Positions 17,756 to 31,919 of a stretch of 50,503 nucleotides of DNA are shown here, piece by piece. Each line of letters starts with the position of its first letter. Position 1 is the first letter of the stretch. A model generated the notes under the pieces. That model saw nothing but the letters and a program-made list of their open reading frames with translations. It was not told where the DNA came from and searched no databases. Source of the DNA: Chitinivibrionales bacterium (lineage in GTDB: Bacteria > Fibrobacterota > Chitinivibrionia > Chitinivibrionales > FEN-1185); the NCBI GenBank assembly GCA_035516255.1, contig DATJAL010000036.1, positions 1 through 50,503 of the forward strand, written 5' to 3'. A program made the position numbers and the translations under genes.

Positions 17756-18868
17756 ATGAAGAAACCCTATCAGACCGCGGTTGACAACATCGTGGAAACC
17801 CTGGAATGGTTTTTCACCAGGGCATTTTCAAAAATCCACGTTGATCTGAACGGATACAAGCCCGAAACGCTCAAGGATTCCATGGTCATGGCGGTGTCGT
17901 CGCACCGGAGCCAGACCGATTATTTTCTCTTCGGATGGGTGCTGTTCAACAACGGCGTCAAATACCTCCGCATTGCCGCGGGCGACAATCTGACCACCCT
18001 GCCGTTCATCGGAAAAAAATTCAAGTCTTTCGGCGCCTTTCCCGTGAAACGGGACATGGCCCTCAGGAAAAATTACGTGCGCCAGCTCTGCCTTGACGTT
18101 GTGGGAATGCTTGAGGACAACGAGCCGATTCTCGTGTTTCCCGAAGGCGGCAGGAGCTACGGCGGCGACATGATGGAGCCCAGGGGCGGCATTCTCTTGT
18201 CCGCGATCCTTGCCCAGGCGAGGAACCCCCAAAAAAAAGTGTATTTGCTTCCCGGCACCGTTTCCTATGAATACCTGCCCGAACTTCCCTATTTCGAGAT
18301 GCTGGGAAAGGGCAAGGAGATGCGGAAGAAATCGAACAATGTTTTCAGACGGCTCGCCGGCACCCTATATTACTTCGGCGCCGACATTCTCGCGTTCGGT
18401 AAATTTCTTTTGCGCACGCGGCTCGGCCTTTCGCAGGGCGAGGTGTACGTCGACATTGGCACGCCCCTTGCTGTCAATGAAATTGTGGATGTCAAGGCGA
18501 ATTTCAACGCAAAGGCGCGCGATGATTTTTCAGGCCACCAGGCGTCCATGCGGATTGTCTGCAACAAACTGTCTACGGTGTTCCGGTCGCTGTACCGGTT
18601 TTTGCCCGAGCATGTGGTGGCCGGCGTTCTCAAGAAAAACCCGGCAATCGCCAAACGGGCGGCTGCGGAACGGGTGCAGGAGATTGTGCTGCGTCTCAGG
18701 GAACAGAAACGCAACACCAAAACCCTTGACGCCCTCACCGAACACCAGATCGTCGCCATCGGCTTCAAGCAGCTGCGGCGCGTGAAAGCTGTTTCGATGC
18801 AGGGTGGCGCGCTCGCGATCCGGAAACAGTCAATCATCGATTATTACGCGTCGGCGCTCATGGAATAG
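17756..18868 (+). CDS. PlsB/PlsC-superfamily glycerolipid acyltransferase
   Basis: 370 residues. The acyltransferase motif I is HRSQTD (His50...Asp55), a HX4D form. Motif II/III is seen in FPVKRDMALRKNY, and FPEGGRSYGGDMMEPRGG matches motif III (FPEGxRS). The length and motif spacing fit a PlsB-like or DHAPAT-like enzyme, shorter than PlsB (about 800 aa). It would acylate sn-glycerol-3-phosphate or lysophosphatidate at the inner membrane. The next gene starts 10 bp downstream with a good ribosome site, so the two are likely co-transcribed. Confidence 0.85.
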   Translation: MKKPYQTAVDNIVETLEWFFTRAFSKIHVDLNGYKPETLKDSMVMAVSSHRSQTDYFLFGWVLFNNGVKYLRIAAGDNLTTLPFIGKKFKSFGAFPVKRDMALRKNYVRQLCLDVVGMLEDNEPILVFPEGGRSYGGDMMEPRGGILLSAILAQARNPQKKVYLLPGTVSYEYLPELPYFEMLGKGKEMRKKSNNVFRRLAGTLYYFGADILAFGKFLLRTRLGLSQGEVYVDIGTPLAVNEIVDVKANFNAKARDDFSGHQASMRIVCNKLSTVFRSLYRFLPEHVVAGVLKKNPAIAKRAAAERVQEIVLRLREQKRNTKTLDALTEHQIVAIGFKQLRRVKAVSMQGGALAIRKQSIIDYYASALME

Positions 18869-18878
18869 GAGGAAACAG

Positions 18879-20264
18879 ATGCCGTTCCAGGATTATGTCA
18901 AGGTCCCGGCGGTGGTCGATCTCAAGTCCACCGAGAAGATGGAGGCGATCAAGGAACTCGTGAAGGAGCTGTGCAAGGCGCTCAAGGTGGGTCGCCGGCA
19001 GAAGGCCTTTGTGGAAGACATCCTCAAGCGCGAGGAAGCGGCCTCCACGTTCATCGGCCAGGGGATCGCCATCCCGCACCTGCGCGCCGACATCAATGAC
19101 GATTTCGCCATCGCGGTCGGCAGAAGCGTCGCGGGCGTCAAGTACGACGCCGCGCGCGGCGCGCTCGCCTACGTCATCGTGCTGGTGATCACCAACGAGC
19201 ACGCCGACAACACCGGGCACATCCAACTGCTGTCGGAGGTGGCCTCCTTTTTCAAGGCCGACGCGGTGCGGGCCAAGCTGCTGTCGGCCCCCGCCGGCGT
19301 TGACTTTGCGGAACTTTTCTCGCCGGCCGCGGGCGTCACCGACGAGGAGAAGCCGCAGAAGGTGGTGAAGAAGGCGTCGGCGCCGGTGCTCAGCGCCGCC
19401 ATCGACCTGGCCAAGGACATCAAGGCGACGGCGATCATGGTGTTCGCCGACGCGGTGCGCGACAACGATTTCCTCGACGTGCTGAAGGGCAGGGGCAAGG
19501 TGATCGTGGTGACGAGCAACAAGTCGCGCTTCGACCCCGAGGACAAGCGGTTCGCCGCCTGCATCCAGGCGCCGTCGTTTCCGGCCTCGCGCACCGGCCA
19601 GGTGAAGATCGGCATGCTGCTGTCGCTGTCACGCAACCTGATTGACAACAACGACAAGGTCGTGTGCCTGTCGGGCAATTCAAAGACCGGCGTGTTCGAT
19701 ACGGTCGTGGCGCTCGACGTTTCGAGCGAGTACGAGTTTTTCTTCTCCAATTCGCCGGCGCTCCTGCCGCCCGACATCATGCCCGAGGTGCTCGAGCGCG
19801 TGCTCGGGCTCGCGGCGGAGATCGCGGTGGAGGGGCGCGAGGGCAAACCCATGGGAACGATCTTTGTGCTCGGCGACACCAACACCGTGAACAAATACGT
19901 GACGCAGCTCATCATCAATCCGTTCCGCGGCTACAGCGAGGCCGAGCGCAACATCATCGATCCGGCGCTCGCCGAAACCATTAAGGAGTTCGCGGCCATC
20001 GACGGCGCATTCATCATCACGGGCGACGGCATCGTGCTCTCGGGTGGAAGTTATTTAAGACCCCAAGCCGAGGTTGAATTGCTGCCGAGCGGGTTCGGTT
20101 CACGCCATGCGGCTGCGGCGGGAATTACGGCGTGCACGAAAGCGCTGTCGATAACGGTTTCGGAGTCGACCGGCCAGGTGACACTATTTAAAAATGGCGC
20201 GATCGTCTTGACGATCTCAAAGCCGGTTGACAGAGAGAAAAGTACGATACAGAAATATTTGTAA
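18879..20264 (+). CDS. PTS EIIA - pyruvate-kinase-C-like - diadenylate cyclase (DacZ-like) fusion
   Basis: 461 residues from the ATG at 18879, which follows TAGGAGG. Residues about 1-150 are a fructose/nitrogen-type EIIA domain with the phosphate-accepting His67 in GIAIPHLRAD. Residues about 165-320 resemble the pyruvate-kinase C-terminal-like domain found before DAC in DacZ proteins (LSAAIDLAKDIKATAIMVFAD). Residues about 322-447 are a DAC domain (GKPMGTIFVLGD; DGA at 375-377; GSRHAAAAGIT; ITVSESTGQV). The canonical RHR is RHA here (409-411). The DAC domain makes c-di-AMP from two ATP, so the protein may couple the phosphorelay to c-di-AMP. It is located between the acyltransferase and pgi. 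Confidence 0.85.
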   Translation: MPFQDYVKVPAVVDLKSTEKMEAIKELVKELCKALKVGRRQKAFVEDILKREEAASTFIGQGIAIPHLRADINDDFAIAVGRSVAGVKYDAARGALAYVIVLVITNEHADNTGHIQLLSEVASFFKADAVRAKLLSAPAGVDFAELFSPAAGVTDEEKPQKVVKKASAPVLSAAIDLAKDIKATAIMVFADAVRDNDFLDVLKGRGKVIVVTSNKSRFDPEDKRFAACIQAPSFPASRTGQVKIGMLLSLSRNLIDNNDKVVCLSGNSKTGVFDTVVALDVSSEYEFFFSNSPALLPPDIMPEVLERVLGLAAEIAVEGREGKPMGTIFVLGDTNTVNKYVTQLIINPFRGYSEAERNIIDPALAETIKEFAAIDGAFIITGDGIVLSGGSYLRPQAEVELLPSGFGSRHAAAAGITACTKALSITVSESTGQVTLFKNGAIVLTISKPVDREKSTIQKYL

Positions 20265-27197: not shown

Positions 27198-29183
27198 TTA
27201 CAGTTTTCCGGTAATCCTTTCCACAATCCGTTTCATTTTCCTCTGTGTAAAGTACCACTCAAGCGCTCCCTTTCCCGGCTCCATCTTCCCTGCAAACGAG
27301 ATGCAGCACGCCGACGCCCTTTTGAACTCAACCGGCGCTCCCCGGCCGGATTTAAGCAGCGCCTTTGACAAATGCGCCAGGTGCGGCATGTGCCCCACGC
27401 ATACTGCGGACTTCTGGCGAATGGTTTTCAGCCAGGCAAGTGTGTCGGCGACGTCGGCGTCGGGCAGGAGGCACTGCTTTTTCGTCACCGGCGCGTTGAA
27501 CGAGAAATTCTGGGCCAGGACCGCCGCGGTGTCGTGCGCGCGCGCAAGCGGGCTCGACGCGAGGACGCCCGGCCGGCACTGGAGGAGCGACAGGGCGCGG
27601 CCCGCGGTCTGCGCCTCGCGTATTCCCTGCGTGTCAAGCCGGCGTTTTTCACCGCCGGTTGCGGCCGCGGTCGCATGGCGCACGAGGTGGAGAAACGCGG
27701 CATTGCTTTTGCCCTGACCAAACAGCGCGGCCGCCGCATACAGCATCGACGACATCCGCAGGGAACGCCACGACCGGCGGAACGCGGCGAGGATCACGCG
27801 CTTACTGGCAGAAAGCGCCAAAAGAAGCTGTGGCGCCGCGGGGGAATCCTGCTGGCGCAGGCGCAGGAGCGCCATGTCGGTGTCGTGCAGGTCGCCGAGC
27901 GTGTCGGCGAGCGCCTTGAAGCGGCGGGCAAACAGCGCCGCAGGTCTGCCGAGTACGGGCGCGAAGAACTCGGACCAGTAGCGGCCGCGCCTGCACAGCT
28001 TCCGCAGGTGGTGCATCTGCTTCACGTCATAGTCGGGTTTCACGCCCGGCCGCGACAATACCTCAAAGTAAAGAGCGGCGAGCCTGCGGCCGGCAAACGG
28101 TGCAAGCGGGACCTGCGGCTTATTTGACTTCTGCGGAAGCTCGATCCGCAGGAAGCGGTTGATGTGACGCATAAGAGCGGTATACTCACGGCCGGCCAGG
28201 ATTTTCCGCAACGCCTGCTGGTCGGCTTTTTTCATGCGCGACTGCAGCGCGCAGAAGTGGACGAAATCGCTGCTGCCCCTAAAGCGGTCCGACATCCGCC
28301 GGGAAAACAGGAAAGCGCGCCAAACGTCGTTGTCGCGCACCGGCGAAAGCGCAAGCGCGATCGATGCGATTTTTTCATCGATGGCGCGGCAGGTTTTCGC
28401 CGGGAGGAACGGCGCAAAAAGGCGCAGGCAGGAACGGAGCCGGCGCAGGGCCACGCGGGCGTCATGGAGCGGCTCGTCGCTTTCCCCGGTGAGCATGCCG
28501 CCGTACTGTTCGGCAACGATGCGGTACTGGAGATACAAAAGCCTTCGCGCCGCGTCAAGAACGCCGTCGCCGGGCCGCACGATCCCGAAAAATTTCCCCG
28601 CCGCTTCCGCTCGGGTGCTTTCGACGATGCGCAGCTCTTTGGGAAAAATATTTTTCCACAGGTCGGCCTTGGCCCGGGCCCACGCGATGTTGCCCCGGTA
28701 GGTGGGACTCGAGACCGAAAGCAGGGTGCCGCCGCGGCGGTTCTTGACGGAAAGTATCGATGTGTTCTGTACGTGGCCGTGGTCAAGGCCGTCGGCGACG
28801 CGCAGGATCGCGCCAAGCCTGAGGGCGGTTACCTTATTGTCAAGATTTTTGAAAAAGCGGTCGAAATACGCCTTCGTGTAGTCCTTGCGGTGGAGCAGGA
28901 TTATGGCCGCAATGGTCCTGCATTGTTCGTCGGTAAAGCCCGCCACCCCCTTTTTCATCACGATACGCATGCCCTGTGCCTGATGATCGGACGGTTTTTG
29001 GAAATAGCCAATGTCATGGAGAAGCGCCGCGGCTCTCAGCGTCGGGCGAAGGGACGCCGGTAATTTCAGATGACGGCTCATCGCATCGAATATCTGGAGC
29101 GAAAGCCCGGCGACAAACCGCGAATGGGCATCCTCGTTTTTATATTTTCTGCAGAGGGATTCTATGGTCGGCTTTTTGGACAT
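27198..29183 (-). CDS. HD - CHAD - SixA triple-domain protein
   Basis: 661 residues. Residues about 1-200 are an HD domain: His20, His56/Asp57 in LLHDIGYF, His98 and Asp131 in GAILRVADGLDHGH, close in style to the C-terminal domain of the Ppx protein encoded in this window (AAILRVADALDRSH). Residues about 205-490 are CHAD, with H240DARVALRRLR, RDND (283-286) and HHLRKLCRRGRYWSEFF near 391. CHAD domains bind polyphosphate. Residues 495-661 are a SixA-type histidine phosphatase (LVRHA 500-504; SSPLARAHDTA; GHMPH 597-601). It is the last gene of ppx-hyp-ppk1-this. Confidence 0.9.
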   Translation of the reverse strand: MSKKPTIESLCRKYKNEDAHSRFVAGLSLQIFDAMSRHLKLPASLRPTLRAAALLHDIGYFQKPSDHQAQGMRIVMKKGVAGFTDEQCRTIAAIILLHRKDYTKAYFDRFFKNLDNKVTALRLGAILRVADGLDHGHVQNTSILSVKNRRGGTLLSVSSPTYRGNIAWARAKADLWKNIFPKELRIVESTRAEAAGKFFGIVRPGDGVLDAARRLLYLQYRIVAEQYGGMLTGESDEPLHDARVALRRLRSCLRLFAPFLPAKTCRAIDEKIASIALALSPVRDNDVWRAFLFSRRMSDRFRGSSDFVHFCALQSRMKKADQQALRKILAGREYTALMRHINRFLRIELPQKSNKPQVPLAPFAGRRLAALYFEVLSRPGVKPDYDVKQMHHLRKLCRRGRYWSEFFAPVLGRPAALFARRFKALADTLGDLHDTDMALLRLRQQDSPAAPQLLLALSASKRVILAAFRRSWRSLRMSSMLYAAAALFGQGKSNAAFLHLVRHATAAATGGEKRRLDTQGIREAQTAGRALSLLQCRPGVLASSPLARAHDTAAVLAQNFSFNAPVTKKQCLLPDADVADTLAWLKTIRQKSAVCVGHMPHLAHLSKALLKSGRGAPVEFKRASACCISFAGKMEPGKGALEWYFTQRKMKRIVERITGKL

Positions 29184-31439: not shown

Positions 31440-31919
31440 TTATCTGCAAAATGATACGTTCACGGCATTGCTGCGCGCAAAGCCGATCAAGGTCTTGAAT
31501 TTCGTGTTGTCCTGCTCCATCGAATTTTCATAATTGCATTCAATCTGGTATTTCGCGGTTGCTGAAATTTTGTATTGATCGGAAAAATTTATTTCCTGAA
31601 TCATTTCAAACGATCCGGTCCCCTTTAACAGCTCGAATTGAGGATCAAAAGGGCCCTCGGGCGCCCGTTTGTTGTCCGCCTCCTCGACCATTTTCCCGTT
31701 TTCATGCCGCAGAAGAACGCGGATGTTCCAGGTATTTATCCAATAATCGTTCTTTGATTTGTTCACCAGCCGGATCTTGACGGTGTTTTTCCCGTCAATA
31801 ACCAGGCAACTGTCGACCGCAATGGAAATTGAGGCGTTCTTCTCGACATTCACCGGATTGCTTGCCATTCCCATGAATAAAATTGCGGCGCACAGGGAAA
31901 TTAATTTGACCTTATTCAT
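31440..31919 (-). CDS. Small secreted protein between ppx and ppk1
   Basis: 159 residues. The signal peptide (MNKVKLISLCAAILFMGMA) is followed by a beta-rich domain (KNTVKIRLVNKSKNDYWINTWNIRVLLRHENGK quoted in parts). Its location between ppx (33 bp) and ppk1 (51 bp) suggests co-transcription, yet it is extracytoplasmic while its neighbours act in the cytoplasm or at the membrane. No family recognised. It is also lower in GC than its neighbours, so an inserted gene is possible. Confidence 0.65.
   Translation of the reverse strand: MNKVKLISLCAAILFMGMASNPVNVEKNASISIAVDSCLVIDGKNTVKIRLVNKSKNDYWINTWNIRVLLRHENGKMVEEADNKRAPEGPFDPQFELLKGTGSFEMIQEINFSDQYKISATAKYQIECNYENSMEQDNTKFKTLIGFARSNAVNVSFCR

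Follow-up and report, generated by a model that had tools for sequence, protein, structure and literature searches.

The window analysed here, a 50,503-nucleotide stretch of DNA from a Chitinivibrionales bacterium, carries a group of polyphosphate (polyP) genes on one strand (Table 1). These are read in the order ppx, a 159-residue open reading frame (ORF), ppk1 and, as the last gene, an ORF for a fusion protein that runs from 29183 to 27198 with no internal stop. The fusion ORF begins 60 bp after ppk1 on the same strand, and so directly follows it, as originally predicted. In an alignment to 1xdo, H442 of the ppk1 product corresponds to the catalytic histidine H435 of E. coli PPK1 and is conserved. 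The position of ppx upstream of ppk1 is conserved in relatives. The sister genome (G001) has no counterpart of the 159-residue ORF, its ppx and ppk1 being directly adjacent; this ORF lies outside the conserved operon. Separately, about 7 kb from the polyP locus (18804-20264, plus strand), a PTS EIIA domain (PF00359), a DacZ_P-type sensor and a diadenylate cyclase (PF02457) are joined in one chain. Direct control of c-di-AMP synthesis by the PTS is possible for this second fusion, which was not named in the papers found in a limited literature search.

Table 1. Features of the polyP locus, with positions in the window.
Feature	Position	Strand	Remarks
HD(Ppx III+IV)-CHAD-SixA fusion protein, 661 aa	27198..29183	-	same fusion in G001, G030
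Ppx/GppA domain III (HD) + domain IV, residues 5-188	28620..29171	-	PF21447, PF01966; Z 21
CHAD domain, long form, residues 197-491	27711..28595	-	PF05235; Z 26.9 to 6qva
SixA-type histidine phosphatase, residues 496-652	27228..27698	-	PF00300; Z 23.1 to 1ujb
ppk1, polyphosphate kinase 1, 714 aa	29244..31388	-	TIGR03705, 814 bits
159-aa ORF, signal-peptide-like start, between ppx and ppk1	31440..31919	-	no Pfam family
ppx, exopolyphosphatase (ASKHA + own HD), 524 aa	31953..33527	-	PF02541, PF21447

All Pfam matches in the fusion protein exceed their gathering cut-offs: CHAD (PF05235, residues 223-443) scores 134.7 bits against a gathering score of 25.6, Ppx-GppA_III (PF21447, residues 5-147) 57.5 bits against 27.3, His_Phos_1 (PF00300, residues 498-568) 26.9 bits and HD (PF01966, residues 19-134) 26.2 bits. 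PF02541, the ASKHA catalytic domains I+II that Pfam finds in the neighbouring ppx product, had no match in the fusion. An AlphaFold2 model built with 26 relatives (mean pLDDT 93.9, pTM 0.92) was compared with known structures. Its CHAD part matches the CHAD-polyP complex 6qva over 289 residues and, with the PF05235 match, has the fold of two four-helix bundles. Residues 5-188 fit residues 325-508 of D. radiodurans Ppx (8jgr; Z 21.0 over 159 residues), which is the C-terminal half of that enzyme; the N-terminal part of the fusion is therefore a complete Ppx domain III+IV unit and no generic HD domain. The C-terminal part matches E. coli SixA (1ujb) with an rmsd of 1.6 Å over 151 residues. In the mixed alignments A3 and A5 the first part of the rows of separate SixA proteins is misplaced, and A5 was the input of the model; despite these rows, the SixA part retains its 1.6 Å fit. 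Pfam and structure matches thus agree with the claim that HD, CHAD and SixA-type domains occur in one 661-residue chain.

The assignment of the third domain needs a qualification. Its best NCBIfam match is the SixA family TIGR00249, at 42.6 bits against an equivalog cut-off of 74.5, and all three of the fusions that we found stay below this cut-off (42.6, 42.5 and 50.8 bits), whereas the separate SixA proteins of two related genomes exceed it (95.5 bits in G015, 94.9 in G006). All 29 relatives compared share the catalytic residues R502, H503, R548 and H598. The motif RHA, however, takes the place of RHG: it is present in all three fused SixA domains, and the separate proteins compared (set A4) have RHG. 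The fused domains also sit on a long branch of the SixA tree. The prediction of a SixA-type phosphatase therefore stands for the PF00300 match, the fold and the catalytic residues, but the domain is SixA-like and divergent, so that its specificity or activity may have changed.

The other two domains also keep their functional residues. Aligned to C. tepidum CHAD, the fusion retains the polyP contacts H240, R243, R247, R283, R401, Y402, R420 and K423 (C. tepidum H253, R256, R260, R296, R418, Y419, R438 and K441), the first six of which are invariant in seven relatives. Mutating pore or front-side residues of the C. tepidum domain weakens polyP binding (PMC6537752), and all pore and front-side residues of that mutant set are retained in the fusion; the comparison covers these two faces, with four back-side residues outside the mapping. 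In the HD unit, H20, H56-D57 and D131 make up an H...HD...D ligand pattern, to which H67, H98 and D134 add; this set is invariant in seven relatives from the order and nearly invariant in 39 HD-CHAD rows, a set containing a few near-duplicates, with D57 the least constant (D in 30 of the 39). The ligands are also kept in most Ppx proteins of the phyla compared; D. radiodurans Ppx has HE at the position of H56-D57. One reading of the protein is that of a structural phosin, which would organise polyP granules and whose HD and SixA domains would mainly bind polyP or PPK1, with no important catalysis. Ralstonia CHAD proteins do lie on granules and can be deleted without a phenotype (PMC6537752), and the SixA part diverged after fusion, as its RHA motif and long branch indicate. 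Purely structural domains, however, would have no need of SixA catalytic residues kept in every relative or of HD ligands kept in nearly all, and we regard this reading as quite unlikely. The intact CHAD pore and front side, HD ligands and SixA catalytic set together argue instead for a phosphatase that docks on polyP.

The same domain order was found in other ppk1-bearing genomes. Among 40 genomes of the order Chitinivibrionales, three carry the triple fusion, in each case after ppk1: besides the window, the sister genome G001, in which the fusion (63% identity) follows the abutting ppx and ppk1, and G030 (41% identity). Because it is present in two further genomes at these identities, the fusion is not an assembly artefact, and an origin by frameshift is excluded likewise. 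Four more genomes (G015, G007, G006 and G012) have the order ppx-ppk1-hd-chad-sixA, in which the last two genes are not fused; the G015 contig begins within ppk1, and this genome has a ppx on a different contig. Within Chitinivibrionales, CHAD is restricted to PPK1-bearing genomes, occurring in 8 of 21 with PPK1 and in 0 of 19 without (Fisher p 0.004, uncorrected for relatedness). A further arrangement was seen in G011 (L032, 8973-9905, plus strand), where CHAD has been lost from the operon and what remains is a 128-residue HD stub before an intact SixA, with an HD-less CHAD gene on a different contig (C23).

A first scan of genome contigs with the single fusion protein gave no match. About 85,000 species genomes were then scanned with a profile, and the best 80 loci were evaluated. 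Among these, Kiritimatiellae (L038, L040) and Lentisphaerae (L045) have split hd-chad followed by sixA after ppk1. HD-CHAD lacks a neighbouring SixA in Verrucomicrobia, Opitutae and Neomarinimicrobiota, and Chloroflexi have HD-CHAD as well. The triple fusion occurred in none of 388 Verrucomicrobiota genomes, 14 of which have HD-CHAD. Two other architectures were encountered. A Phycisphaeraceae protein of 871 residues (L076, 6033-8648, plus strand) has two CHAD matches, perhaps halves of one domain, before a complete Ppx (ASKHA + HD). A stand-alone Ppx-type HD protein of about 200 residues (III+IV; L080-L112) is common in Gastranaerophilales, which account for most of these loci.

In the HD tree, a branch with an SH-aLRT support of 99 separates HD-CHAD domains from Ppx HDs, and five other HD-bearing proteins, from Chloroflexi or archaea, group on the HD-CHAD side. 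The HD of the fusion had been likened to that of the neighbouring Ppx. This likeness holds for the Ppx III+IV fold, but the kinship is distant and the lineage separate, and the same branch rules out a recent copy of the neighbouring Ppx HD. Judged from the tree, HD-CHAD domains belong to an ancient line distinct from every Ppx HD. In both the HD tree (99) and the SixA tree (100/100) the three fusions group together as a single clade; with three genomes in it, the fusion is rare, and the idea of a widespread architecture is unsupported. The old polyphosphate operon behind the fusion would have consisted of ppx, ppk1, hd-chad and sixA. Taken together, the two trees suggest that the HD-CHAD lineage is old and that SixA was joined to it later, most simply once; the fusion would then be a recent join, of single origin, between hd-chad and sixA, both of them old genes of the operon.

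We further analysed which genes SixA accompanies in 289 Verrucomicrobiota genomes, comparing the 27 best SixA matches with about 118 weaker ones. Seventeen of the 27 adjoin CHAD and/or ppk1 (10 beside CHAD only, 2 beside CHAD and ppk1, 5 beside ppk1 only) and 10 are unlinked; inspection by eye showed none of the weaker ones linked to CHAD or to the ppk1 matches listed, and some links may have been missed. Two Verrucomicrobiota genomes in which no CHAD was detected genome-wide (G330 and G188) have ppx-ppk1-sixA as overlapping genes, so that even in CHAD-less genomes sixA directly follows ppk1, with a 4-bp overlap. Operons of this kind from CHAD-less Verrucomicrobiota lie at L155 (1073-5302, plus strand) and L156 (1823-6094, plus strand). 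In other genomes, which have ppk1 on another contig, sixA lies next to TTM-CHAD genes or overlaps them, and a draft Planctomycetia genome with no ppk1 detected has ppx-CHAD-sixA (L075/G069). Published neighbourhoods are similar: histidine phosphatases are among the common genes downstream of ppk (PMC8003754), HIMB59 has ppk with a phosphohistidine phosphatase and ppx (ppk-sixA-ppx; PMC10734472), and biomining archaea, said to have no identified polyP-making enzyme, carry SixA-PPX-CHAD clusters (PMC10892726). An exclusive tie of SixA to either PPK1 or CHAD is ruled out, as each pairing occurs apart from the other. Since SixA follows ppk1 without CHAD and accompanies TTM-CHAD away from ppk1, its place is in the polyP pathway at large: the close SixA family is part of polyP metabolism, tied to neither CHAD alone nor PPK1 alone. 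From the pairings without ppk1 nearby (TTM-CHAD, Planctomycetia, archaea) it also follows that PPK1 is not the sole partner of the family.

These linkages bear on a second reading, that the fusion is an enzyme of polyP degradation, in which HD and SixA would hydrolyse polyP, oligophosphates or end groups, CHAD would feed the substrate, as proposed by analogy with the TTM-CHAD polyphosphatase ygiF, and PPK1 would be a mere neighbour. The SixA-CHAD pairs without ppk1 nearby are consistent with such an enzyme, as are the descent of the HD unit from the Ppx family, its occupation of the N-terminal place that TTM has in TTM-CHAD, and the increase of ygiF activity by its CHAD domain (PMC6537752). 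The ppx-ppk1-sixA operons without a CHAD gene point the other way, as they place SixA in the pathway without a need for CHAD, and the substrates known for SixA enzymes are phosphohistidine proteins. Nor is the catalytic part of Ppx known to be its HD. On balance, we consider a degradation enzyme somewhat unlikely.

The likeliest function, as far as sequence and gene order can tell, would be that of a polyP-docked phosphatase, in keeping with the operon place after ppk1, fused in three genomes and split in four more. CHAD would hold the protein on polyP chains or granules, as its retained residues suggest, and the SixA part, docked beside PPK1 and Ppx, would strip the phosphate off a phosphohistidine. 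By analogy with Ndk and NPr, this would most likely be the catalytic phosphohistidine of PPK1, whose discharge would stop synthesis or deplete the intermediate. The HD unit may be a metal-dependent phosphohydrolase for polyP ends or nucleotide polyphosphates, replacing the TTM tripolyphosphatase at its position in TTM-CHAD proteins, or, like its counterpart in Ppx, it may provide one more surface that guides polyP. We put this explanation forward as a whole tentatively, with confidence somewhat short of even.

E. coli SixA dephosphorylates NPr (PMC7948535) and the catalytic phosphohistidine of Ndk (PMC12934123). These precedents, together with sixA right after ppk1 even where CHAD is missing and a neighbouring PPK1 that keeps its catalytic histidine, argue for PPK1 as the target. 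The PPK1 histidine is buried, however, and SixA must reach it; the fused SixA is divergent, with a possible change in specificity or activity; and a role on PPK1 only is opposed by the pairings with TTM-CHAD away from ppk1, with ppx-CHAD in the ppk1-less draft Planctomycetia genome and with PPX and CHAD in the archaea (PMC10892726). Discharge of PPK1 by the SixA part is thus a possibility that we would not yet back at even chances, and the SixA part may alternatively cut short polyP. The same E. coli targets, NPr (PMC7948535) and Ndk (PMC12934123), would also suit a third reading, in which SixA acts on another phosphohistidine protein (PTS HPr or Ndk) and CHAD binds polyP just to signal the phosphate or energy state. 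The genome encodes two HPr proteins, and the PTS EIIA-diadenylate cyclase fusion lies 7 kb away; the close SixA family, in contrast, sits with polyP genes in most loci examined, and this reading is unlikely.

The fusion joins a polyP-binding domain to two phosphatase-type domains that are usually on separate neighbouring genes. A natural fusion, its unfused neighbouring genes in other phyla, and ppk1-sixA gene pairs in CHAD-less genomes together make a strong circumstantial case for a histidine phosphatase in polyP metabolism. The shutdown of PPK1-driven polyP synthesis is poorly understood, and few CHAD and SixA proteins have a known partner. The fusion suggests a histidine-phosphate eraser at work directly within the polyP (phosphate storage) machinery of the cell. 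With more reserve than for the docked phosphatase as a whole, one could propose that a CHAD-held SixA strips the PPK1 phosphohistidine, as the first off-switch known to target a polyphosphate kinase itself; separate SixA proteins encoded with ppk in other phyla could act likewise.

The known systems each share part of this protein. E. coli ygiF is a TTM-CHAD short-chain polyphosphatase. TTM(CYTH)-CHAD proteins such as ygiF and the Ralstonia phosins likewise have a polyP-binding CHAD preceded by a phosphohydrolase-type domain; the fusion differs in having the Ppx HD unit for TTM, plus a C-terminal SixA. A literature search for CHAD with SixA, an HD domain or a histidine phosphatase, with subscription papers and domain-architecture pages outside its scope, returned no such fusion, in line with the original view that the domain order is undescribed. 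As the parts are known and their gene-level link is already published, only the joined architecture is new. The HD-CHAD proteins of ppx-ppk1 operons in Kiritimatiellae, Verrucomicrobiota, Lentisphaerae, Neomarinimicrobiota and Chloroflexi have the identical first two domains, of one HD lineage, and mostly the same operon place, but with SixA as a separate next gene or absent. Ppx/GppA exopolyphosphatases share their whole C-terminal half (domains III+IV, HD) with the fusion, which differs in having no ASKHA domains I+II and an HD of a separate ancient lineage. SixA (TIGR00249; E. coli 1ujb) has the fold and the catalytic R-H-R-H set in common with it; the E. coli enzyme targets NPr and Ndk, whereas the SixA of the fusion is joined to CHAD, has RHA and falls under the cut-off. 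Finally, the published SixA/CHAD/PPX neighbourhoods (PMC10892726, PMC10734472, PMC8003754) bring together the same functional set side by side, as separate genes for which no fusion is reported.
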